This document shows, piece after piece, positions 1 to 11,379 of a DNA stretch of 64,000 nucleotides; within the stretch, counting starts at the first letter, position 1, and each line of letters opens with the position of its first letter. The translations under genes and the position numbers were made by a program. Origin of the DNA: Stutzerimonas stutzeri (GTDB lineage Bacteria > Pseudomonadota > Gammaproteobacteria > Pseudomonadales > Pseudomonadaceae); contig NZ_CP036186.1 of assembly GCF_015291885.1 (NCBI RefSeq), forward strand, positions 620,001-684,000, written 5' to 3'. The notes under the pieces were generated by a model. It had not been told where the DNA came from. It ran no database searches and saw only the letters and a program-made list of their open reading frames with translations.

Positions 1-1
1 G

Positions 2-388
2 GGCGGGCGTGCCGCCGAAAAGCTGGTGTTCGGCGAGTTGTCTACCGGGGCGGCGGACGATCTGGCGCGAGCCACCGACATCGCCCGTGACATGATCACC
101 CGCTTTGGCATGGACGAGGGCCTGGGCTACATCGCCTTCGAGGCGCAGCGGCCCCGCTTTCTCGATACACCTGAACTGGCCCACGGCGGTTGCCGGGTGG
201 CCGAATCGACCCAGGCGCGCATCGATCAGGCTATCCGCGACATCGTGATGGGCGTGTTCGAGCGCGCCTACCGGATTCTCGACATCAACCGCGCGGTGCT
301 GGAGCGCTGTGCGCGCGAGCTGCTGGCGCGGGAAACGCTCGACGAAAGCGATATCCGTCAATTGACTCAAGGACTTGTTCGGAACTGA
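2..388 (+). CDS. ftsH: ATP-dependent zinc metalloprotease FtsH, C-terminal part (island copy)
   Basis: This is the last 128 codons of an FtsH-family membrane protease; the gene enters from the left, so the AAA+ ATPase domain and the HEXXH zinc site lie outside the window. The visible part begins at GRAAEKLVFGELSTGAADD, the M41 peptidase segment that carries the third, aspartate zinc ligand. It ends with the helical stretch around ARELLARETLDESDI that is typical of FtsH C-termini. Family members degrade misfolded membrane and cytosolic proteins. Followed 87 bp later by a small heat-shock gene and then yfdX genes, the order of the stress-tolerance locus, so I take it as the island FtsH rather than the housekeeping copy. 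Confidence 0.9.
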   Translation, partial: GGRAAEKLVFGELSTGAADDLARATDIARDMITRFGMDEGLGYIAFEAQRPRFLDTPELAHGGCRVAESTQARIDQAIRDIVMGVFERAYRILDINRAVLERCARELLARETLDESDIRQLTQGLVRN

Positions 389-475
389 AAACAGTAGTAG
401 GTGCCATTCAGAGTAAACCGACGGCTCTGTTCAGTGCGTCATCCAATTCGTCGGCATTGTTCAAGGAGAACCGAT

Positions 476-934
476 ATGTCTGCATTGACTCCGTGGGACC
501 CCTTCCGGGAACTGGATGAATTGCAAAACCGCCTGGCGACGATGTTCGGACGGACACCCCAGCGACAGGGCGCCCGTACCGGCAACGAAGCCATGACCAC
601 GGCGGACTGGGCACCAATGGCGGACATCAGCGAGGATGAGAACGCATTCCTCCTCAAGCTGGATCTGCCGGAGGTCCCCAAGGATGCCGTGCGCGTCAGC
701 GCGGAAAACGGTGTGCTCACCATCAGCGGCGAGCGCAAACTGGAAAAAGAGGAGCAGGGCAAGAAGTTCCACCGCATCGAACGTGCGTATGGCCGCTTTG
801 TGCGCAGCTTTGTCTTGCCTGACAACGTTGATCCGACCAAGGTGACGGCTTCGATGAAAGACGGCGCGCTGGAAGTGCGGCTTGTCAAGGCCGAGCAAGC
901 CAAACCGAAACAGATTGAAATCTCAGTCAACTAA
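476..934 (+). CDS. Small heat-shock protein, Hsp20/alpha-crystallin family
   Basis: A 152-residue holdase chaperone. The alpha-crystallin domain spans about residues 42-140, with the conserved NGVLTISGER strand and a later DGALEVRL strand. The tail carries an I-x-I anchor (IEI) used in sHsp oligomer assembly. The ATG at 476 follows AAGGAG at 463-468 with good spacing; longer upstream starts lack such a site. The family binds unfolding proteins without ATP and passes them to ClpB/DnaK-type machines. It sits between the ftsH end and yfdX1, matching the second sHsp gene of the heat-resistance locus. Confident as to family; the island role is inferred from context. Confidence 0.94.
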   Translation: MSALTPWDPFRELDELQNRLATMFGRTPQRQGARTGNEAMTTADWAPMADISEDENAFLLKLDLPEVPKDAVRVSAENGVLTISGERKLEKEEQGKKFHRIERAYGRFVRSFVLPDNVDPTKVTASMKDGALEVRLVKAEQAKPKQIEISVN

Positions 935-956
935 CTTTAATCAAGAGCCCAAGATC

Positions 957-1871
957 ATGAATATCAAACAGCCAAAATACATCTTCTCCGCACTTGCCCT
1001 GGCGGTCGTCGTCGGACTGAGCGGACCGGCTCTGGCCCAATCAGCGGCAGGTTCTAGCCCAGGTGCTGCAGCACCCTCTGCCGCATCCAAGGCGGCGCAG
1101 CCACAGGTAGATGACAAGGTCGCCCGGGAAGCCGCGAAAAAGCGCGCCGAACTCGCCCAAGATGCAATCACTGCGCTGGCCAAGACCCATGAGGCATTGA
1201 TCCTCCTTGATGCAAAGAAGACCAAGGAGGCGCTCGCTGCGCTGGAACTGGCCAGCGGAAAGCTGGAACTGGTATTGGCGCGTGAGCCAAAACTTGCTTT
1301 GGCGCCCGTCGATGTAAGCGTCATCACCCATGACATCCACGCCGACGTGGAATCGGTCAAGAAAGCGGTCAAGTTGTCTCGGGAGTTGTTGGATGATGGC
1401 GAGGTGCAAAAGGCACGGCCCATCGTCGCCAATCTTGCCAGCGAAATCGTGATCGAAACCGACAACCTGCCGATGGCAACGTACCCGGCAGCGATCAAGT
1501 CGGCCGCACGGCTCATCGACAGCGGCAAGATCGACGACGCCAAGGCGGAACTCGCCCGAGCACTGAACACGCTGGTGGTGACCTCGGTCGCCTTTCCTCT
1601 GCCCGTGCTACGGGCCGAAGCCGCGATGGCAAAAGCGGAAAAGCTGGCCGAGACCGACAAGCGCGATGCCAAACAGAGCGAGGAGCTCAGCGCCCTGCTG
1701 GCCTACGTGCGCACGGAAATCGAGCTGGCGCAGATCCTGGGTTATGGCAAGAAGGCGGATTTCGAACCCATCTTCGATCAGGTGAAGTCCATTGAGCAAA
1801 AGTCGGCTGGTGGCAAAAGCGGCAAGGGATGGTTCGACGAGTTGAAGACGCGCATCCAAAAGCTGTTTTGA
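957..1871 (+). CDS. yfdX: YfdX family protein 1, exported form
   Basis: A 304-residue YfdX-family protein. Residues 1-25 form a signal peptide: a basic start, a hydrophobic run, and an ALAQ-type cleavage site, so it should be periplasmic. The mature part is helical and charged, with a conserved core including ATYPAAIKSAARLIDSGKI and a C-terminus GKGWFDELKTRIQKLF. YfdX proteins are linked to acid, heat and oxidative tolerance; the biochemical activity is poorly defined. The ATG at 957 is chosen because it yields a clean signal peptide; a longer frame open from 882 would bury it. It starts 22 bp after the sHsp stop and is probably co-transcribed with it. Its closest relative in the window is the next gene. 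Confidence 0.9.
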   Translation: MNIKQPKYIFSALALAVVVGLSGPALAQSAAGSSPGAAAPSAASKAAQPQVDDKVAREAAKKRAELAQDAITALAKTHEALILLDAKKTKEALAALELASGKLELVLAREPKLALAPVDVSVITHDIHADVESVKKAVKLSRELLDDGEVQKARPIVANLASEIVIETDNLPMATYPAAIKSAARLIDSGKIDDAKAELARALNTLVVTSVAFPLPVLRAEAAMAKAEKLAETDKRDAKQSEELSALLAYVRTEIELAQILGYGKKADFEPIFDQVKSIEQKSAGGKSGKGWFDELKTRIQKLF

Positions 1872-1973
1872 GGTGATGAAGGGGCTGACTGCTCTGTCGG
1901 TCAGTCTCGCGATGTTCGCATTCAGCCCCAATAGATTCGCCTATTTTCACTATCTCATACGAGGCATATCACC

Positions 1974-2861
1974 ATGAATGAGCAAACACCGAATCCCAAT
2001 GCGACGAACGAAGGAATAAACGAACAGGCCGCGGTAAGCAGCCTTCCTGTCAGTCCAGAGTCCAAGCCTGAAGTCGTCACGGAGGTACAGCCTGAGGTTC
2101 AGAAAGAAACGGACTCGCAGGCGGCAGACAAACGTAAACAAGTCCTCGATGAGGCAGTCTCGGCCTTGTCGCTGACCAAATCCGCGCTGGCCGCACTTGA
2201 CGGCAAGGACACTGCACGCGCATTGGCAACGCTGGCCGAAGTGACGGGAAAGCTGGAGCTGATCGTTGCGCGCGAACCCACGCTCGCCCTGGCCCCCGTT
2301 GATGTGGGCACCATCGTGCACGACTTGTTCGCCAACACGGAAACCATTGAGGCGATGACCGACGAGGCGCTGGATGCCCTCAAACATGGCGAGGTGCAAC
2401 AGGCTCGCCACGTGCTGGCTTTGCTGGCCAGTGAAATCGTGATCACGGTCACCAACATCCCTTTGGCGTCCTATCCCGCAGCCGTGAAGGCAGTCGTGCC
2501 GCTGATCGATCAGGGCAAGATCGAAGAAGCCAAAGCCGCGCTGCAGGCAGCGCTCAGCACGCTGGTCGAGACGCGCAGCGTGCATCCGCTGCCCGCCCTG
2601 CGCGCCAGGCTGCTCCTGAAGCGCGCCGAGACCCTGGTAGAAGATGGTCAGCGGAGCGAAGCGTCCAATGAGCGCCTGGAGACATTATTGAACGAAGCGC
2701 GGCAGCAGTTGGAAATGGCAGAACTGCTGGGCTATGGAAAGAAGAAGGACTTTGAGCCCCTGTATGCTGAACTCAAGAAAGTCAAGCAAAAGACGGCTGG
2801 GGGAGGCGGCGGAAAAGGCTGGCTCGATGAAATCAAGGCAAAGCTGTCCAAGTTGTTCTGA
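1974..2861 (+). CDS. yfdX: YfdX family protein 2, non-exported form
   Basis: A 295-residue paralogue of the preceding gene. It shares the same helical core (ASYPAAVKAVVPLIDQGKI) and the same end pattern (GKGWLDEIKAKLSKLF), but it starts with a polar, Asn/Glu-rich 50-residue stretch and has no signal peptide. I therefore expect it in the cytoplasm, giving a periplasmic/cytoplasmic pair. A GAGG site lies about 12 bases upstream of the ATG. The intergenic gap from yfdX1 is 102 bp. A strong hairpin terminator follows. Function beyond stress tolerance of the locus cannot be read from the sequence. Confidence 0.9.
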   Translation: MNEQTPNPNATNEGINEQAAVSSLPVSPESKPEVVTEVQPEVQKETDSQAADKRKQVLDEAVSALSLTKSALAALDGKDTARALATLAEVTGKLELIVAREPTLALAPVDVGTIVHDLFANTETIEAMTDEALDALKHGEVQQARHVLALLASEIVITVTNIPLASYPAAVKAVVPLIDQGKIEEAKAALQAALSTLVETRSVHPLPALRARLLLKRAETLVEDGQRSEASNERLETLLNEARQQLEMAELLGYGKKKDFEPLYAELKKVKQKTAGGGGGKGWLDEIKAKLSKLF

Positions 2862-2880
2862 AACCGCTGGATAGGGCGTA

Positions 2881-2903
2881 AGAGGGGCGCGTCGCGCCCC
2901 TCT
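2881..2903 (+). terminator. Hairpin terminator after yfdX2
   Basis: A near-perfect GC-rich inverted repeat (AGAGGGGCGCG and its complement) lies 20 bases after the yfdX2 stop. A T-rich run occurs only further downstream (about 2924), so intrinsic termination is likely but not certain. It separates the sHsp-yfdX unit from hdeD. Confidence 0.65.
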
Positions 2904-2957
2904 CTTGGCTCAGGAGTGTTTGCTTTTTCACCCCATTAGATCTTTAGGAGATATAGC

Positions 2958-3569
2958 ATGAATACAGACACCATCACCGATTCCAGTGCGGATGAGCCCA
3001 CCAAAACACTGTGTTCATTGACCGAAAATTGGTGGATTTTTGCGTTGCGCGGTGTCTTGGCATTGATTTTCGCAGCCCTTGCGTTCTGGATGCCACAATC
3101 GGCTCTGTTGGCCATGACCTTAGTGTTCGGCGCATTTTCCTTGGTCAATGGCGCTTTCAACTTGGTTGCAGCGGTGCGCCATATCCAGAAAAAAGAGCGC
3201 TGGGGCTGGCTGCTGTTCAGCGGCATTGTCGGCATACTTACCGGCGTCGTCGTCCTGGTTGCTCCTTGGGTCGCCACGATGGTCATGGCTTCTTTTTTAT
3301 GGGCTAGCGTGGGGTTCTGGGCGATTTTCACCGGTGTGCTGGAGATATCCGCCGCGGTTCGGCTGCGTCAAGAAATCAAGGGTGAAATCTGGCTTGCCTT
3401 CAGTGGACTGCTCTCGATTGTCCTTGGCGCTATCGTCTTGTGGATATTTTTTTCCCGTCCGGTCGAGTCATTCCTGGCCGCAGGCTGGCTGTTGGGCTTC
3501 TATGCGGCAGTCTATGGTGTCACGCTTTTGTTCTTGAGTTGGCGTCTTCGCAAAACGCGCCAGGGATAA
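2958..3569 (+). CDS. hdeD: HdeD-like acid-resistance inner-membrane protein
   Basis: A 203-residue protein with a short polar N-terminus (about 30 residues) and then six hydrophobic segments, the DUF308/HdeD pattern. It shows the conserved internal duplication of three-helix units, with basic cytoplasmic loops (RHIQKKERWGW, RLRQEIKGEIW). In E. coli HdeD contributes to acid resistance at high cell density; the mechanism is unclear. TAGGAG lies eight bases before the ATG. The gene follows a terminator, so it likely has its own promoter in the AT-rich 2905-2957 stretch, although I see no certain -35/-10 pair. The position after yfdX2 is that of hdeD in the stress-tolerance locus. Confidence 0.9.
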   Translation: MNTDTITDSSADEPTKTLCSLTENWWIFALRGVLALIFAALAFWMPQSALLAMTLVFGAFSLVNGAFNLVAAVRHIQKKERWGWLLFSGIVGILTGVVVLVAPWVATMVMASFLWASVGFWAIFTGVLEISAAVRLRQEIKGEIWLAFSGLLSIVLGAIVLWIFFSRPVESFLAAGWLLGFYAAVYGVTLLFLSWRLRKTRQG

Positions 3570-3648
3570 GAGCGGGTCAAACTAAATTCTATGGATATGA
3601 GCATTTTCGGTTCGTGCCTCCATAGAAATGACATTAAAGGAGTCATAC

Positions 3649-4794
3649 ATGCAGATGCAATATAGCTATCGAGCTGTCGACAAAGAGTTTCATGAACCAT
3701 GGCAGAGAGCTTTGGGAAATGCGGTCGAGCGCGACCTCAAGCCATTGCTCGACAAACACACTAAAGATTCAGTGCGACTTCGAATCGTCCTTGATCGCGA
3801 CAAGACCAAGCGGCAATTTCTGGCCAGTGGCTATATGCACCTGCCCGGCAGAAAGATTGTCAGCGTTACTGCATCACATGACGAGCTGACGCCCCTCGCG
3901 CAGATGCTCGCACAGTCGTTGTTCCGTCAGGCCAAGAAGCATTTTGACCGGCTGCATGCTCAGGACCAAATCAAGCGCAAAGCACGACGCAAGCGCTTGC
4001 GCGAGCTCAAGGTGCGAATTGCCGCAAAACCCGCGTCAGCCGCCCATGAGGCCAAAGTGACCCGAATGCCTCTACTGTCGAAACTTGAGGCTGTCGCAAG
4101 GCGTGAGCTGGCTTATCTGCGTGCCGTCGGCGATTTACCGCGCGATTATCCGACGCTGCGCGACGTGGTGGATGAAGCGATTGTCCAAGCTGAGGTGGAA
4201 TGGCAATCCGTGCCGGAAGAAAAAGCGGCTTACTTCGGTCTTCTGAAGCATCTGTTCGCCGTCCTGGATCACGAAGTGGCAAACAGCCGGCAATTTGGCG
4301 AATTCGTTTCTCTGGACGCGCCGGTCGAAGCGGATGCCCAGGACGTCGCCGAGGCCATGGTGGAAGAGGAAGTCTTCGAATTTTATCAGCCCGATGACAC
4401 ACTCAGGCTGGCCGATATCATCGCTGACAGTCAGCATCCCGATGCCGCAACGATCGCGGAAGAGCAGGAGCTAGTTGATCGGTCGAGCGAGTTCGCTTTC
4501 GCATTCGACCTGCTGAAGGACATGCCGCGTTTGTGGCGGCGCATTTTTCTGCTTATCCGTGTGGACGGGCTGGATGCCAGCAGCGTCTCTGAGATCCTGC
4601 TGATTCCTAGTAAGGAAGATACTGTCCAAAGGTGGCTGATGCAGGCCGAAGCGTTCATCGCTGCTCATTTGGAAGAGGCCGGAGTAAGCAAAGACGGGAA
4701 CGATTGGCTCCAAGGCGTTGATTGGTCGGCATTGTCTGTGACCCGAAGCGCGGCAGCCTCACTGTGGTCCAAGGAGGCGAACCATGAAGAATGA
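3649..4794 (+). CDS. Putative hibernation-factor/sigma-like fusion protein of the stress island
   Basis: A 381-residue protein usually left as hypothetical in this locus. Residues 1-110 resemble an HPF/RaiA (S30AE) domain: beta strands, a GYMHLPGRKIVSV strand pair, then a helix ending FRQAKKHFDRL. From about 143 it looks like a sigma-70 factor: a region-2-like helix (143-182), VSLDAPV at 220-226, a TLRLADIIAD linker at 251-260, and a region-4-like helix-turn-helix at about 280-343 with LPRLWRRIF-like spacing and DGLDASSVSEIL. The ATG at 3649 follows AAAGGAG at 3636-3642, better than the in-frame ATG at 3628. The stop overlaps the start of the trx pseudogene. The domain reading is by eye and needs a profile search; it could instead only mimic sigma structure. 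Confidence 0.75.
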   Translation: MQMQYSYRAVDKEFHEPWQRALGNAVERDLKPLLDKHTKDSVRLRIVLDRDKTKRQFLASGYMHLPGRKIVSVTASHDELTPLAQMLAQSLFRQAKKHFDRLHAQDQIKRKARRKRLRELKVRIAAKPASAAHEAKVTRMPLLSKLEAVARRELAYLRAVGDLPRDYPTLRDVVDEAIVQAEVEWQSVPEEKAAYFGLLKHLFAVLDHEVANSRQFGEFVSLDAPVEADAQDVAEAMVEEEVFEFYQPDDTLRLADIIADSQHPDAATIAEEQELVDRSSEFAFAFDLLKDMPRLWRRIFLLIRVDGLDASSVSEILLIPSKEDTVQRWLMQAEAFIAAHLEEAGVSKDGNDWLQGVDWSALSVTRSAAASLWSKEANHEE

Positions 4795-5223
4795 TCTTCA
4801 CCTCGTCTGCCCGCATGCCAGTCCATCAACCGCGTACCGACTGCGAAGCTATCGGAACATCCCAACTGTGGCCGCTGCCAGCAGCCCTTGTTCACGGGCG
4901 AGCCCATCGAGTTGACCACGGCGACGTTCTCGCGCCACGTGGAGCGCAGCGATCTGCCGCTGCTGGTCGATTTCTGGGCGCCATGGTGCGGGCCGTGCAA
5001 GATGATGGCCCCGTAGTTCCAGCAAGCGGCGCACCAGCTCGAACCCAGGGTCAGGCTGGCCAAGGTCAATACCGAGGCCGAGCCTCACCTGGCCGCCCAG
5101 TTCGGTATTCGCAGCATTCCAACCCTGATTTTGTTCCGAGGGGGACATGAGGTTGCACGTCAGGCGGGCGCCATGGGCGCGCAGGACATTATGCGCTGGG
5201 TAACATCCCGCTTGCCGCAATGA
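4784..5223 (+). pseudogene. trx: Thioredoxin (Trx2-like, zinc-ribbon type), frameshifted and nonsense-mutated
   Basis: The intact reading would give a thioredoxin 2-like protein: an N-terminal zinc ribbon (CPHC...CGRC), then WCGPC in a [13 protein letters not shown] context, IRSIPTL, and a C-terminal helix ending at 5220. Two lesions break it. One base is missing near 4816/4817, which turns the CPHC codons out of frame about ten codons after the ATG. The codon at 5014-5016, expected to be CAG, is TAG, five codons after the active site. The total length, 440 bases, is one short of a multiple of three. An AAGGAGG site precedes the ATG, which overlaps the previous gene's stop. No functional thioredoxin should be made. 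Confidence 0.9.
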
Positions 5224-5378
5224 CCCGGCGCGAACCACCCTGCTTATCAGTTGTTCGATCCTTGAAGAAAGTGCGTAGCCGCGATGCATAGCGACCCCAA
5301 CTATACAATCTTTGACGAAATGCGTTCCCAGTTGCAGAAACTTTGGAACCTCTGTTTCACCCATAAGGAGCGTCACCT

Positions 5379-8186
5379 TTGAACGAGGCTCCTCAAATCT
5401 CAGCCCGACACTGTGGCCAGATTAACCAGAATGCCCATTTTGGCAGTTGGCATCTCGATCTTGGCTCGCAACTCCTCACTTGCTCCGATGAAGCCTGCCG
5501 CGTGCTCGGCCTGGATGTTGGTGCGCCAATAGCCTTCGAGCGATTCCTGCAGTGCATTCACCCTGAAGACCGCCCCCTCTTCGATAGGGCATGGGATGCT
5601 GCCATGTGCGGAAAGTCCCTTGATCTGCGGTATCGCATCGTCAGCGGAGGGCAGGTTCGCTGGATACACCTGCGGGCAACATTCAAGGGCGACGCCTCTG
5701 GTCGGCCCAGAGCGGCAGACGGGACGGTAGAGGACATCACCGATCTCAAGAGGGTCGAGCAGGCGCTGAACGCTATGCGCCGACAGCGAGAAGAGTTGGC
5801 CAGCCACGTTCCCGGTATGCTTTACCAATACCGTCTTCGTCCGGACGGCAGCTCGCACTTCCCTTATGCCAGCGCGAGGATACAGGAAATATACGGGGTT
5901 GCACCGGAGGATGTTGTCGAAGATGCCACTCCTGCGTTCGCTGCGCTCCATCCTGAAGACCGCGACCGTGTGCATGAAACCATACAGGCGTCGGGGCAGT
6001 CACTCGCGCTTTGGCATGACGAGTACCGAGTGCAGTTTCCAGACGGTCGGGTGATCTGGGTCGAAGGCGAGGCGTCGCCTGAAGCCATGCCTGATGGGAG
6101 CATCCTCTGGCACGGCTATATCCATGATGTCACCTCACGCAGAATATCCGCGGAAGAGCTTCGCCTTGCGGCTAAAGTTTTTGCGCACGCAGGAGAGGGC
6201 ATCCTCGTTACCGACGCTCAGGCCCACATTGTCAACGTCAACCGGGCGTTTACCGTGATCACTGGTTATGCGCGGGAGGAAGTATTGGGCCAGACACCCC
6301 GTCTACTCCAGTCCGATCACTATGACGATGAGTTCTATCAGACCGTTTGGCAGGCTGTGCGTGAGCACGACTATTGGCACGGAGAGCTCTGGTGCCGACG
6401 CAAGAACGGCAGTCAGTTTGCCGCGCTGCTGACGATCAGTGCAGTCCCGGATATGCGGGGCAATATCGAGCATTACGCAGCCATGTTTTCCGACATCACG
6501 GCGCTGAAGGAGAACCAGCGACAGCTTGAACGCGTTGCTCATTACGACCTGCTCACCGGCTTGCCCAATCGACTATTGCTTGGAGACCGCCTTAAGCAGG
6601 CTATTGGTCAGACACGTCGGCGTGGCATGCACCTGGCGGTTGTCTTTATCGATCTGGATGGATTCAAGGAGGTCAACGACCAGCACGGTCACGCAGTCGG
6701 CGACAAATTGCTGTCCGTCCTGTCCAGGCGTATGACGCAGGTGTTGCGCGAAGGCGATACCTTGGCCCGCCTTGGTGGTGATGAGTTTGTCGCTATTCTG
6801 GTCGACCTGCCGGATGTTTCCATCAGCGTACCGATTCTCGATCGCCTGATCGAGGCAGCGGCACAGCCCGTACCGATTGGTGACGCACTGTGCGAGGTGA
6901 GCGCGAGTATCGGTGTGAGCTACTACCCGCAAGGCGAAGATATCGACGCCGACCAACTGCTGCGGCAGGCAGATCAGGCTATGTATCGCGCCAAGCAAGC
7001 CGGCAAGAATCGATATCACGTTTTCGATACGGAGAAGGATCGTACGCTGCGCACCCGTCACGAAGGATTTGACAGCATAAAGAATGCACTTGCCAATGGG
7101 CAGTTTCTGCTTTATTTCCAACCTAAGGTCAACATGCGCACCGGTGAGGTGCTGGGCGCCGAAGCCTTGATCCGCTGGCAACATCCGACGCGTGGCTTGT
7201 TATCTCCTGCCTCCTTCATACCCATCATTGAGAACCATCCGCTCGGGATTGACGTGGGGAAATGGACCATCGAAGCTGCGCTGACCCAGATCGAAGTTTG
7301 GCGCAAGGCCGGCCTTCATGTCCCGATCAGCGTGAATATCGGTGCGCGGCACTTGTTGCAACCGGACTTCATCATGCATCTACGGGGTATGTTGTCACGA
7401 CATCCCGGCGCCCAGCCGCAAGACCTTGAACTGGAAATCCTCGAAACCAGCGCCGTGGAGGACTTCGTTCAAGTGTCTCAGTTGATGGCGCTATGCGAGA
7501 GGATGGGATTGCGTTTTGCCCTCGACGATTTCGGCAGCGGCTATTCATCGCTGACCTATCTGAAGCGCCTGCCCGCGCACCTGCTCAAGATCGACCAAGG
7601 TTTTATACGCGACATGCTCGAGGATCCGGACGATATCGCCATCCTGGATGCGCTACTGGCACTGGCAAGGTCGTTTGGCAGGAACTGCATCGCGGAGGGA
7701 GTCGAATCCATTCGGCATGGTGAAATGCTGCTGCGTATGGGATGCGAGTGGGGCCAGGGTTATGCCATCGGGCATCCGATGCCGGCGCATGAATTCGAGC
7801 AATGGCTACACACCTGGCAGGTCCCCTTATCCTGGAAGGGATTCAAACCTGACAGTCGCTCCGCGCTGCCCGTGCCGTTCACATACGCCGACCACCGGGC
7901 CTGGATTTCCCAGATGATCGACTATCTGTCAGGCAAGACCCAAGTGCCGCCTCAACCCGAAGCACTCCAATACTGGCGGGATCAAAGTGGCCGCCCGACG
8001 TTCTTCGGCAAGGATCCTGATGATCAGGTCGATGTCCTGCATCAGAGCATCCAGCAGTTAGCGCACACCCTGAGTGAAATGAATAATGCCGGCCGTGTCG
8101 AGGCATTGAAGGCTGGCATCGACAAGTTGCAACATTTGCAGGCGGATCTGCTGGGATTGCTGCCGCCAGACCAGAAGCCGGATTGA
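5379..8186 (+). CDS. Three-PAS GGDEF-EAL c-di-GMP turnover protein (island-borne)
   Basis: A 935-residue cytoplasmic signalling protein with no membrane segment. PAS-like domains lie at about 20-125, 140-255 and 260-378; GGDEF at 466-470 is intact, with an RxxD inhibitory site (REGD, 457-460); the EAL domain starts with EALIRW at 595 and keeps DDFGSGYSS and IAEGVE. The glutamate motif reads LEILETSA instead of the usual EITES-like form but keeps its glutamates. Residues from about 835 to the end resemble a CZB domain (HRAW ... LHQSIQQLAH), with no cysteine where one is expected. Start is TTG at 5379, eight bases after AAGGAG at 5365-5370. It sits between two thioredoxin remnants, where kefB is usual. 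It may be bifunctional; the dominant activity cannot be told. Confidence 0.88.
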   Translation: MNEAPQISARHCGQINQNAHFGSWHLDLGSQLLTCSDEACRVLGLDVGAPIAFERFLQCIHPEDRPLFDRAWDAAMCGKSLDLRYRIVSGGQVRWIHLRATFKGDASGRPRAADGTVEDITDLKRVEQALNAMRRQREELASHVPGMLYQYRLRPDGSSHFPYASARIQEIYGVAPEDVVEDATPAFAALHPEDRDRVHETIQASGQSLALWHDEYRVQFPDGRVIWVEGEASPEAMPDGSILWHGYIHDVTSRRISAEELRLAAKVFAHAGEGILVTDAQAHIVNVNRAFTVITGYAREEVLGQTPRLLQSDHYDDEFYQTVWQAVREHDYWHGELWCRRKNGSQFAALLTISAVPDMRGNIEHYAAMFSDITALKENQRQLERVAHYDLLTGLPNRLLLGDRLKQAIGQTRRRGMHLAVVFIDLDGFKEVNDQHGHAVGDKLLSVLSRRMTQVLREGDTLARLGGDEFVAILVDLPDVSISVPILDRLIEAAAQPVPIGDALCEVSASIGVSYYPQGEDIDADQLLRQADQAMYRAKQAGKNRYHVFDTEKDRTLRTRHEGFDSIKNALANGQFLLYFQPKVNMRTGEVLGAEALIRWQHPTRGLLSPASFIPIIENHPLGIDVGKWTIEAALTQIEVWRKAGLHVPISVNIGARHLLQPDFIMHLRGMLSRHPGAQPQDLELEILETSAVEDFVQVSQLMALCERMGLRFALDDFGSGYSSLTYLKRLPAHLLKIDQGFIRDMLEDPDDIAILDALLALARSFGRNCIAEGVESIRHGEMLLRMGCEWGQGYAIGHPMPAHEFEQWLHTWQVPLSWKGFKPDSRSALPVPFTYADHRAWISQMIDYLSGKTQVPPQPEALQYWRDQSGRPTFFGKDPDDQVDVLHQSIQQLAHTLSEMNNAGRVEALKAGIDKLQHLQADLLGLLPPDQKPD

Positions 8187-8239
8187 TGCCATGCATGGGA
8201 CAAAGGGTTGACGTGCAAGAGGCTGATCCACCCATCGGC

Positions 8240-8299
8240 GGCGCCACGCGCGCGCAGGACATTATGCGCTGGGTGGCTTCGCAATTGCCTCGGCAATCC
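8240..8299 (+). pseudogene. 3' scrap of a second thioredoxin gene
   Basis: In one frame this reads GATRAQDIMRWVASQLPRQS, matching the end of the decayed trx at 5177-5220 (AMGAQDIMRWVTSRLPQ). Twenty-five bases are identical between 5177-5201 and 8250-8274, and the sequences diverge afterwards at silent and replacement positions. It is therefore a related but distinct trx end rather than a fresh copy. It has no start, active site or in-frame stop at the expected place. It marks a recombination or deletion scar downstream of the GGDEF-EAL gene. Confidence 0.8.
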
Positions 8300-8337
8300 A
8301 GGTGTAATCGAGTCGTCTTCTCGGACTGCCCGTTCCA

Positions 8338-8341
8338 TTAG
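8338..8341. repeat. Target-site duplication, left (TTAG)
   Basis: TTAG abuts the left inverted repeat of the insertion sequence; the same four bases abut the right end at 9534-9537. A four-base YTAR duplication is usual for the IS5 group of the IS5 family. Confidence 0.85.
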
Positions 8342-9533
8342 GGAAGGTCTGAAAAAGACTTCCCGAATCTGGTGAAACACGCCGATCCCGCCAGCCGAGT
8401 TTTTCCATGAAGCAGATGACCTTCGCCGACGCCGAGTACGCCGGCAAGCGCAAGCAGACCCGTAAGGAGTTGTTCCTGATCGAGATGGATCAGGTGGTGC
8501 CGTGGAAGGGATTGATTGCCCTGATCGAGCCACACTACCCAAAGGGTGAAGGTGGTCGTCCAGCCTATCCGCTGATGGCCATGTTACGTATCCATCTGAT
8601 GCGGAACTGGTTCGGCTACAGCGACCCGGCCATGGAAGAAGCGCTCTACGAGACGACCATCCTGCGTCAGTTCGCCGGGCTGAGCCTGGAGCGTATTCCC
8701 GACGAAACCACCATCCTAAATTTCCGTCGCTTGCTGGAGAAACATGAGCTGGCAGCCGGCATCCTCGGCGTAATCAATGGCTACCTGGGGGATCGCGGCC
8801 TGTCGCTGCGCCAGGGCACTATCGTCGATGCCACACTGATCCACGCGCCCAGCTCGACCAAGAACCAGGACGGCAAGCGCGATCCGGAGATGCACCAGAC
8901 CAAGAAGGGCAACCAGTACTACTTCGGCATGAAGGCCCACATCGGTGTGGATGACGAGTCGGGGCTGGTGCACAGCGTGGTCGGCACGGCGGCAAACGTG
9001 GCGGATGTCACCCAGGTCGACAAACTGCTGCATGGTGAAGAGAACGTCGTCTGCGCCGATGCCGGCTACACCGGCGTCGAAAAGCGCCCCGAACATGCTG
9101 GCCGCGAAGTGATCTGGCAGGTCGCAGCACGCCGCAGCACCTACAAGAAGCTCGATAAACGCAGCGCCCTGTACAAAGCCAAGCGCAAGATCGAGAAGGC
9201 CAAGGCACAAGTGCGAGCGAAGGTCGAGCACCCGTTTCGAGTGATCAAGCGCCAGTTCGGTTACGTGAAGGTGCGCTTCCGTGGCCTGGCCAAGAACACC
9301 GCTCAGCTGGTGACGCTGTTCGCGCTGTCGAACCTATGGATGGCGCGCCGACATTTGCTGACTACCGCAGGAAAGGTGCACCTGTAATGCGGAAAATGGC
9401 TGCTGCGAGGTGCTCGCGGCGGCCAAAAACGGAGAACTGAGCGGGTTACCTGGTCGATTTTGATCGACGGCCCGCTTTCAAAAGCAGCGAGGGCTGAAGT
9501 CGACCGGAAATACAGGGTTACTTCAGACCTTCC
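8342..9533 (+). mobile_element. IS5-family insertion sequence, complete, 1192 bp
   Basis: Terminal inverted repeats GGAAGGTCTGAA (8342-8353) and its complement (9522-9533) bound a single transposase gene, and TTAG is duplicated on both sides. All parts needed for transposition appear intact: uninterrupted transposase, matching ends, matching target duplication. This suggests a recent insertion. It lies between the second trx scrap and psiE. Confidence 0.92.
8407..9387 (+). CDS. IS5-family transposase (DDE type)
   Basis: A 326-residue transposase. The N-terminal third (about 1-120) is the DUF772-type DNA-binding part with GRPAYPLMAMLRIHLMRNW and the DETTILNFRRLLE motif. The DDE catalytic residues are visible in VDATLIHAP (first Asp), CADAGYTG (second Asp) and RAKVEHPFRVIKRQFG (Glu, in the Y-2-R-3-E-6-K-like region of IS5 proteins). 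The length matches the family and no frameshift is needed. It starts 65 bp inside the left inverted repeat. It moves its own element by cut-and-paste or copy-out; there are no cargo genes. Confidence 0.95.
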   Translation: MKQMTFADAEYAGKRKQTRKELFLIEMDQVVPWKGLIALIEPHYPKGEGGRPAYPLMAMLRIHLMRNWFGYSDPAMEEALYETTILRQFAGLSLERIPDETTILNFRRLLEKHELAAGILGVINGYLGDRGLSLRQGTIVDATLIHAPSSTKNQDGKRDPEMHQTKKGNQYYFGMKAHIGVDDESGLVHSVVGTAANVADVTQVDKLLHGEENVVCADAGYTGVEKRPEHAGREVIWQVAARRSTYKKLDKRSALYKAKRKIEKAKAQVRAKVEHPFRVIKRQFGYVKVRFRGLAKNTAQLVTLFALSNLWMARRHLLTTAGKVHL

Positions 9534-9537
9534 TTAG
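9534..9537. repeat. Target-site duplication, right (TTAG)
   Basis: This is the second copy of the TTAG duplication made on insertion of the IS. Removing the element plus one TTAG restores a continuous sequence that leads into psiE. Confidence 0.85.
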
Positions 9538-9565
9538 CGCTTCATTGAAAGAGAGAGCAACGCTT

Positions 9566-10036
9566 ATGCATAAAGAATCTGGCCACACGGCCCTTGACGA
9601 GATGCGCTCCCAGTGGCGGTTGATGACGGTTTACGAGCGCTTCGAGCAGGTCGTCGCCCTCGTTCTGTCGGCGGTAATTGCCGTCATCATCGTGGTGTCG
9701 CTGTTCCAGCTCATCGCCATCGTCTTCACGCTGCTGGTTCTCGATGCCTTCAATCCCCTGGATCAAAAGGTATTCCAGAGTGTGTTCGGCATGATCATGA
9801 CGCTCTTGATCGCGATGGAGTTCAAGCATTCCATCGTGCGCGTGGCGCTGCGTAAGGAAAGCATCATCCAGGTCAAGACCGTCATTCTGATCGCGATCCT
9901 GGCACTGGCCCGCAAGTTCATCATCCTTGACCCCGACGTTGATCCTGCCAAATTGGCCGCCCTGGCGGGGACGATACTGGCCTTGGGTCTGACCTATTGG
10001 CTCATGCGTGAACGCGACGACCGGAAGAGCGAGTGA
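9566..10036 (+). CDS. psiE: PsiE family phosphate-starvation-inducible membrane protein
   Basis: A 156-residue membrane protein of the PsiE family. After a polar 30-residue start come four hydrophobic helices (about 30-58, 70-90, 100-120, 130-148), with the conserved MEFKHSIVRVALRKESIIQVKTVILIA-type loop and helix between them. Its molecular function is unknown; E. coli psiE is induced by phosphate starvation. The ATG at 9566 has AGAGAG just upstream; a TTG at 9545 is possible but less likely. psiE is a usual right-hand member of the stress-tolerance locus. The IS inserted about 30 bp upstream may have changed its expression. Confidence 0.87.
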   Translation: MHKESGHTALDEMRSQWRLMTVYERFEQVVALVLSAVIAVIIVVSLFQLIAIVFTLLVLDAFNPLDQKVFQSVFGMIMTLLIAMEFKHSIVRVALRKESIIQVKTVILIAILALARKFIILDPDVDPAKLAALAGTILALGLTYWLMRERDDRKSE

Positions 10037-10074
10037 TTGGACCATGGCTCTTTATAGTCTAGACGGTCGACACG

Positions 10075-10302
10075 ATGCCAGGTCGAGGCACCGCTGGCTC
10101 AATCCGCTTTCAAGCCGTGTTGCTGGTTTTGACCCTGGTGGGGATCGCGGCTGCCGTTGGCAGTCTGCTGTTGGGCGAGCATGGCCTTTGGCTGGCACTG
10201 GCAACATGCGCATTGACCCTGCTGATCGAACCTGTCGTCGCCTCCGCGATGACCTTGCGCCTGTATGGCGTTTATGTGGTACTAGTGGTGCCACATGTTT
10301 GA
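10075..10302 (+). CDS. Short two-helix membrane protein, probably truncated
   Basis: A 75-residue ORF with two hydrophobic segments (about 11-30 and 38-58) and then LRLYGVYVVLVVPHV. I do not recognise it. It follows psiE by 38 bp and there is no convincing ribosome site. Its stop falls exactly where the sequence turns from GC-rich island DNA to the AT-rich msrA segment, and its last codons look like a chance continuation across that join. It is probably the 5' part of a longer island membrane gene; the degP gene expected further right in this locus is absent. Confidence 0.45.
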   Translation: MPGRGTAGSIRFQAVLLVLTLVGIAAAVGSLLLGEHGLWLALATCALTLLIEPVVASAMTLRLYGVYVVLVVPHV

Positions 10303-10827
10303 TTATTTTTTGATTATTTTTTCCAGTTTTGCGAGCTTTGGTGAGATTGATATCTGGCAGTATCTGTTGCTTGGATTCTTTGTGAAGAAGTCTTGGTGAT
10401 ACTCCTCAGCCTCGAAAAATTCAGCTAACCTCTCTAGGGTGGTTACCACTGGGCTTTTCCAGGTGCCTTTTTTTTCGGTTTCTAGTATTGCGTTTTTCGC
10501 GATTTCTAGCTGTTCGTCGTTATTATAAAATATGGCGGATCGATATTGGGTTCCAGTATCTGCGCCTTGTCTGTTTAGAGTGGTTGGGTCATGTATTGCA
10601 AAGAAAATATCAAGTAATTCGGATAGGCTAATATCGCTACTGTCAAATTCAACTTTTATTGCTTCAGCATGACCTGTTTTGCCAGTGCATACATCATCAT
10701 AAGTTGGTGCGTTTAGGGTTCCTCCCGTGTAGCCACATATCACAGACTGAACGCCTTTGATTCTCTTGAAGACCGGTTCAAGACACCAAAAGCAACCGCC
10801 TGCTAGAACTATTTTTTCAGTTTTCAT
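10303..10827 (-). CDS. msrA: Peptide methionine sulfoxide reductase A, foreign low-GC copy
   Basis: A complete 174-residue MsrA, which reduces S-methionine sulfoxide in proteins. The catalytic cysteine is in GGCFWC near residue 12; the conserved CGYTGG, GKTGHAEAIKV, FFAIHDPTTLNRQG and GTQYRSAIF motifs follow, and EEYHQDFF near the end completes the fold. AGAGG precedes the ATG by about seven bases. Hand counts on three 60-base rows gave 37-45 % GC, far below its neighbours, so it was acquired from a lower-GC source. It stands directly beside the truncated native msrA and could restore the lost activity. The C-terminus is Lys/Ile-rich and is encoded by a tandem 11-base repeat spanning 10301-10322. 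Confidence 0.95.
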   Translation of the reverse strand: MKTEKIVLAGGCFWCLEPVFKRIKGVQSVICGYTGGTLNAPTYDDVCTGKTGHAEAIKVEFDSSDISLSELLDIFFAIHDPTTLNRQGADTGTQYRSAIFYNNDEQLEIAKNAILETEKKGTWKSPVVTTLERLAEFFEAEEYHQDFFTKNPSNRYCQISISPKLAKLEKIIKK

Positions 10828-10926
10828 TGGGGCCTCTGTATAAAAGTCAGGGGGGCTGGGGTGCGGCCGATATGGGGGCAGCGTGGCTGCTATGCTTTCA
10901 CGTAGATCGTCTGGCCGGCGCTATAG

Positions 10927-10965
10927 CTATGCTGAGGCGTCCTAGCAATAGGATTCCTAGCATAG
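10927..10965. repeat. Imperfect palindrome at the island/core junction
   Basis: CTATGCT (10927-10933) is complementary to AGCATAG (10959-10965), with CCTA/TAGG nested inside and CCTAGCA repeated directly at 10941 and 10956. It lies within 30 bp of the point where native msrA sequence ends (about 10990). It could be part of a recombination site or an element end. I do not see the core sites of an integron attC. Confidence 0.4.
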
Positions 10966-11379
10966 ATTGACTCTTGACGATCCTCCTAATCCCTGCGTCG
11001 GGTTGTGCGCTTCCCAGAAATTGCGCAGTAGCGTGCCGTAGTCGATCTGCTGCGGATCGAACACCACGAGTACTGCCTCGGTATGGCCGGTCAGGCCGGA
11101 GCATACCTCGTCATACGTTGGGTTTGGTGTCAGCCCGCCGGCATAACCCGCGGCCGTGGACCAGACACCCGGCTGCTCCCAGAACCGCCGTTCCGCGCCC
11201 CAGAAGCAGCCCATGGCAAACACCGCCTGTTCCAAAACTTCAGGGAATGGCGCCTGCAGCGAATTGCCATTGACGTAGTGTGCTGCGGGGACCGACATGG
11301 GCGTTGAGCGGCCGGGTAGGGCCTGCTCTGGCGTGGGTAAGGCTTGCTTGCTGACCAGTATTTCTGAGCGTAGCGACAT
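10957..11379 (-). pseudogene. msrA: Native chromosomal msrA, 3' end lost at the island junction
   Basis: It starts as the Pseudomonas MsrA ([19 protein letters not shown] ...), with the catalytic GCFWGAERR and the [12 protein letters not shown] motif, and runs normally to the NPTQG codons at about 10990. There it jumps to ten unrelated codons and a TAG at 10957. Family members are about 215 residues; only some 130 native residues remain. The GTQYRS strand and the later region with the recycling cysteines are gone, so activity is unlikely. Its neighbour dipA matches the PAO1 order msrA-dipA, so this is the original locus. The ATG at 11379 is the start of the conserved sequence; a longer frame continues upstream without homology. 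Confidence 0.88.

Follow-up and report, generated by a model that had tools for sequence, protein, structure and literature searches.

A mobile element with a trio of tyrosine recombinases splits the methionine sulfoxide repair gene msrA of Stutzerimonas stutzeri, and the complete, diverged msrA that it carries, which lacks the target codons, likely takes over the function of the broken gene. The DNA analyzed (the window) is a stretch of 64,000 nucleotides, positions 620001-684000 of a genome that consists of one contig of 4,639,098 bp; coordinates below refer to the window unless genome positions are stated. The ends of the element, its 6-bp core, both halves of the native gene, the carried gene and the recurrence of the arrangement in six genomes can all be read in the sequence.

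The native msrA lies on the minus strand and starts at 11379. Its 5' fragment (10996..11379) matches positions 1-80 of the PMSR profile and lacks the second half of that profile. Homology extends through HNPTQG and is followed by 10 foreign codons and a stop, giving a frame of 140 codons that ends at 10957; the initial annotation had likewise placed the loss of homology after NPTQG and the stop ten codons later. By junction alignment, the crossover core of attR is the 6 bp at 10990..10995, which read CAGGGA on the minus strand. Beside it is the right terminus of the element, which reads CTAA on the plus strand at 10986-10989 and TTAGGAGGA on the minus strand, so that the element ends at 10989. 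This terminus and the leader of the carried msrA together span 10828..10989 (minus strand), as defined by junction alignment over the six genomes. The carried msrA itself (10303..10827, minus strand) is complete, encodes 174 aa and matches positions 1-153 of PMSR with an E value of 5.4e-65. Its ATG is 129 bp from the stop of the native frame and 162 bp from the core, and its GC content is 40.8%, versus 61.8% for the native fragment, in agreement with the low-GC msrA described about 130 bp into the island. The missing 3' half, which had been expected at the far left end of the island, is indeed there, at G000:C1:604523-604753 (profile 78-152), to the left of the window, on the same strand and 26.2 kb away. 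A search of the genome with PF01625 returned three matches. Two are the native parts, 5' (1-80) and 3' (78-152); the third, the carried gene, is the one complete PMSR gene among them. With both native halves and a complete PMSR gene identified, the initial proposal that an element has broken msrA and brought a complete msrA with it is borne out. The island occupies genome positions 604751-630989, or 26,239 bp.

The split is recurrent. Six genomes have msrA split at the same codon, and each of them has a carried msrA (6/6), confirming that an msrA of the low-GC type accompanies this junction. Within the genus, msrA is split here in 3 of 56 genomes, all with a carried msrA, and the other 53 have a full-length, unsplit gene. 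When a profile of 24 relatives of the second recombinase was scanned over species genomes, 13 loci were obtained. Four of the 13 genomes behind these loci have the same split (S. stutzeri 24a13, the metagenome-assembled Pseudomonas sp. Ga0074129, P. chengduensis 402 and Halomonas sp. LBP4), one of which is also among the three from the genus; the remaining nine have no split here. The carried gene and the 5' fragment are co-oriented on one contig in five of the six genomes and lie on two contigs in P. chengduensis. In Halomonas the distance from the core to the carried ATG is 133 bp. The second recombinase is 93-97% identical to that of the S. stutzeri element in the four nearer genomes (over a partial length in P. 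chengduensis) and 51% identical in Halomonas. At a threshold of E 1e-60, the second-recombinase profile matched only the S. stutzeri genome itself among 390 genomes of the order and 369 of the class. The second-recombinase protein searched against 398 genomes of the family gave full-length matches only in three genomes already known, plus 29 weak partial matches. A search of viral contigs found no relative; 14 pattern matches were obtained there, about the number expected by chance according to our own estimate. Partial PMSR matches away from this break were seen in G028:C22 (118-153) and in G404:C224 (two pieces).

In all six genomes the break falls at the codons for QG (or HG) that follow PT; it is flanked on one side by CTAA-N6 and on the other by N6-TTAGGAGGA. 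The six msrA insertions share a 6-bp spacer with arms of the form CTAA-N6-TTAG, and their junctions are identical to the base; the match of the outer arms is weak, at 7 and 8 of 16 bases. An alternative to site-specific integration is that the native msrA was already broken, and that a foreign msrA and a stress-tolerance locus came to lie beside it through homologous recombination or through rearrangement by insertion sequences. Copies of insertion sequences are present in and beside the island, and the elements of the S. stutzeri genome and of G033 share only their ends apart from insertion sequences, which indicates that the interior was exchanged by some route. That six genomes have the break at the identical base, together with shared arms and a 6-bp core, nonetheless makes this alternative highly improbable.

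The core sequences also bear on how integration took place. At attL the cores are CAAGGG in the S. stutzeri genome, CAGGGG in G033, CAGGGA in G035, and CAGGGC in G399, G403 and G410. At attR they are CAGGGA in the S. stutzeri genome, G033, G399 and G403, CACGGG in G035 and CATGGC in G410. According to the available text of PMC10214605, the rule for SEs (strand-biased circularizing integrative elements) is that the 6 bp of the target end up in attL and the 6 bp of the donor in attR. The 6-mer of the nearest intact locus equals attL in four of the six cases and attR in none, and the S. stutzeri genome and G035 are undecidable from the relatives compared. The nearest intact locus to that of G033, 92-94% identical to it, has exactly the attL core and the bases that follow. 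The best intact loci for G399, G403 and Halomonas agree with attL as well, though they are only 74-82% identical. CARGGN-ATG is found at the site in 25 of 27 intact loci of the genus, and the other two read PTPN and have no core. The recombinases probably made the insertion by transposition of the SE type.

Several features suggest that the carried msrA is functional. Alignment with solved MsrA structures indicates that GCFW, GHAE and DTGTQYRS are kept. Comparison of the carried msrA of the S. stutzeri element with that of G033 over 172 codons gave a dN of 0.061 and a dS of 0.353, and the resulting dN/dS of 0.17 shows purifying selection on the carried gene. From the complete motifs and this ratio we infer that it keeps methionine sulfoxide repair going. 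In all eight carried copies HDPTTLN replaces the target codons, so the carried copy would not itself be a target at that place. The carried gene lies directly downstream of the native 5' fragment and is co-oriented with it. Its transcription would start at the native promoter or within the leader of the carried gene itself, and either would make the insertion nearly cost-free. A consensus scan of the minus strand between the fragment and the carried gene detected no terminator-like or promoter-like site, and read-through from the native promoter is therefore something that we infer. The RNA fold of the leader is not unusual (z -1.27). The carried MsrA of Halomonas is 55% identical to that of the S. 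stutzeri element, and in a tree of 85 MsrA rows it falls outside the other carried copies, with metagenome proteins in between. The idea that the carried MsrAs form one clade was rejected, as three label changes are required on that tree.

Four genes make up the left end of the element: first an integrase gene, then one whose 686-aa product has no Pfam match, then a large integrase gene, and last one with a 156-aa product. This four-gene set is intact on the Pseudomonas aeruginosa plasmid pF061_1, where the products are 373, 686, 623 and 156 aa. The Pfam family Phage_integrase matches the first and third genes of the trio and not the second; the RHRY residues, which in SEs are present in IntA and IntB and lacking in Tfp, were judged by eye only. 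Alignment to the intact copies revealed two interruptions in the recombinase genes of the S. stutzeri element: an IS30-family insertion in the first gene, and in the third an insertion that carries a DDE transposase. Because insertion sequences interrupt both genes, this element is probably immobile now.

The right-hand interior of the element (1..10302) holds stress-tolerance cargo; the element itself extends leftward beyond the window as far as genome position 604751. Genes for HSP20 (401-934), YfdX (1974-2861), an HdeD-like DUF308 protein (2958-3569), a DDE transposase (8407-9387) and PsiE (9545-10036) were located from Pfam matches and open reading frames, and a GGDEF/EAL protein (5379-8186) was named from its translation, without a family search. 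Over the whole element, the cargo that follows the recombinases is HSP20, a ClpB-like ATPase, FtsH, a second HSP20, YfdX, the HdeD-like protein and PsiE, after which comes msrA, reading inward. The first YfdX-like frame, and one HSP20 that lies to the left of the window, were named by reading, and the other genes of this list by Pfam matches. A set of HSP20, Clp ATPase, FtsH, YfdX, HdeD and PsiE is what we take to be a heat-resistance or stress-tolerance locus (tLST), and by Pfam the cargo of this element has that composition.

Other copies of the element carry other interiors. Over 23.5 kb the G033 element shares 99.96% identity with the one on pF061_1, whose ends lie next to a small gene and close to umuD, outside msrA. 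On the S. stutzeri plasmid S116 the same msrA end, the only end seen there, lies beside a DNA cytosine methyltransferase gene, also outside msrA. The presence of a near-identical element both in msrA (G033) and outside it (pF061_1) indicates that such elements move together with their msrA. The interior of pF061_1 contains ptxD and phnCDE (phosphite), as does G033 by its 99.96% identity. In S116 the genes adjoining msrA are IetA/IetS-like, and sequence that matches them is present in G033 and others. Once insertion sequences and host flanks are set aside, the S. stutzeri element and that of G033 have nothing in common but their recombinase and msrA ends. Three kinds of interior are thus found between conserved ends: stress tolerance in the S. 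stutzeri element, phosphite with IetAS, and CBASS in Halomonas. The room between the two fixed ends would hold interchangeable cargo. Of the defence genes, the IetA/IetS-like pair is at L067:12979-16420 in S116 and at L065:1903-5019 in pF061_1; in the latter the IetA-like gene is kept, and in the place expected for IetS the annotation has an IS30-family transposase. The CBASS genes of Halomonas LBP4 (JAB, E1-E2, cyclase and SAVED nuclease) are at L139:1322-6304, between the recombinase end and msrA. Plasmid pF061_1 has a further, distantly related trio of recombinases with its small gene, beside umuD (L066:2911-7933).

The plasmid copies bear on two points of the initial annotation. Its suggestion that the substitute msrA fixes the island in place is not supported, given the 23.5 kb that are 99.96% identical in msrA and on a plasmid outside msrA, and the interrupted recombinase genes are a likelier reason for a stuck island than the carried msrA. 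It had also reasoned that a low-GC msrA should not be found apart from the island in a genome with an intact native msrA. That expectation holds for the eight copies whose surroundings were seen, all of them at an element end; on the two plasmids, however, the element lies outside msrA, and the comparison there covered the plasmids and not the chromosomes of the hosts.

These copies can also be taken as support for the idea that the carried msrA is ordinary stress cargo, an extra gene for oxidative repair, that matches the target by accident and was not kept as a substitute. MsrA by itself is a plausible stress gene, copies persist outside msrA on the two plasmids, and sister elements in comM and in a TauE-family gene have no replacement. 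Against it, msrA occupies the terminus away from the recombinases in 8 of 8 copies, whatever lies in the interior, and in all six chromosomal cases with a carried msrA the broken gene is msrA. We therefore consider an accidental match unlikely.

The sister elements were identified among relatives in other targets. Ends were placed in two relatives outside msrA, and four further loci (three from Shewanella, and short contigs) were left out. The relative in P. faucium splits comM, a gene named by its ChlI match and by reading, and carries no replacement. The relative in Cobetia is in a TauE-family gene, is about 13.2 kb long, with its right end placed by the arm motif, and has no replacement either. 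A rule that every such element carries its target was dropped, since the comM and TauE relatives do not. The TauE fragment is also present in Halomonas 25-S5 and in a metagenome-assembled genome named Rhodopirellula, and right element ends were not found in these two. In P. faucium, comM is split at bases that code for QG, with CAAGGT/CAGGGT (L076:7376-8506 and L137:2698-3190). The TauE-family insertions are at the same place in the gene, with cores CATGGC/CACGGC (L080:8128-8722, L081:8122-8716 and L079:5197-5790), and by our reading the contig named Rhodopirellula looks gammaproteobacterial. The P. putida plasmid pKF715A has a 54% relative and no msrA.

The strategy itself, in which an element breaks a gene and brings a homolog of it, is known already. 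The target of SE-6283 (Tn6283) is bcp, and its cargo includes a bcp homolog (PMC9345347; PMC5991714, with 54.8% protein identity, in the available text). Both elements have a recombinase trio and a small gene at one end, a 6-bp core that follows the attL/attR rule, a conserved oxidative-stress gene as target and a diverged homolog as cargo, and SE-6283 too is reported, in the text available, on a plasmid outside bcp. They differ in the gene, msrA here being both target and cargo, and in its place: the carried msrA lies at the far end from the recombinases, the bcp of SE-6283 after the small fourth gene. The first recombinase is 27% identical to IntA of SE-6283 (1.6e-8). Tfp, IntB and Srap of SE-6283 had no significant match to the genes of the element (the published grouping used many PSI-BLAST rounds), and a search of pSEA1 with an SE Tfp profile gave no match. 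The SE gene order intA-tfp-intB-srap corresponds to that at the left end, which on pF061_1 is integrase, a 686-aa product with no Pfam match, large integrase and a 156-aa product. SEs have imperfect inverted terminal repeats around a 6-bp spacer, and the arms and core of the six msrA insertions agree with this. We call the element SE-like, by its layout and core rule; among the SE-6283 proteins only the first recombinase shows a resemblance.

Other known elements share parts of this design. The recA mobile element of Vibrio cholerae is an island in a specific site of recA that carries a diverged recA (PMC4405046, available text); it resembles the element described here in using a specific site in a repair gene and carrying a diverged copy, and differs in that the gene is recA, not msrA. 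Tn552-II is a tnpABC element with a target-gene-like gene, tgl, for which its authors suggest rescue (PMC12486829, available text). The two elements are alike in being of the tnpABC type, with a short core from the donor and a carried homolog of the target; the core of Tn552-II is 7 bp and, in the same text, its tgl keeps a core copy, unlike the msrA here, which is without the target codons. GInt (ginABCD) likewise has three integrase-like genes and a small one at one end, variable cargo, a specific target and 6-nt staggered cuts (PMC5385486, available text). Its degenerate member, ginC, is the third gene, whereas here it is the second gene that has no integrase match, a comparison made by Pfam only. 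Gene replacement is not described for GInt in the available part of PMC5385486. A literature search, with supplements and subscription papers outside its scope, found no element in the methionine-repair gene msrA, and msrA is absent from the main texts of PMC10214605, PMC5385486, PMC9345347 and PMC5991714. As far as searched, what is new is the msrA target/replacement pair, the position at the opposite end, the missing target codons and the persistence in two diverged lineages whose interiors differ.

To bcp, recA and tgl the element adds one more pair of target and replacement for tyrosine-recombinase transposons. A broader reading, which we offer tentatively and rate slightly short of even, is that an SE-like lineage fixed a principle of "repair what you break" in its backbone. 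Recombinases that aim at one msrA codon and, at the other end, a target-immune msrA that comes to lie directly behind the host promoter would make integration harmless and leave the interior as a free slot for cargo, be it heat tolerance, phosphite, IetAS or CBASS. Together with SE-6283 and bcp, genes for the repair of oxidative damage would then be recurrent docking sites, chosen as replaceable. Two diverged lineages and three kinds of interior make the idea that elements pay for their docking site testable by comparison. By inserting into a conserved repair gene, at a cost expected to be small, such elements would give stress-tolerance and phage-defence genes a route into the chromosome. The finding also calls for caution with msrA annotations in such genomes, since the annotated gene may belong to the element and not be the species' own.

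Minor observations concern msrA genes and their ends. Three genomes of the genus have a second msrA, a 183-aa open frame, in addition to an intact native msrA (G004:C27, G010:C20 and G047:C1:1457909). At the 3' end of the carried msrA there is a short tandem duplication (TTTGATTATTT; window 10289-10320), past which the near-identical database proteins P0064 and P0065 continue into different sequence.
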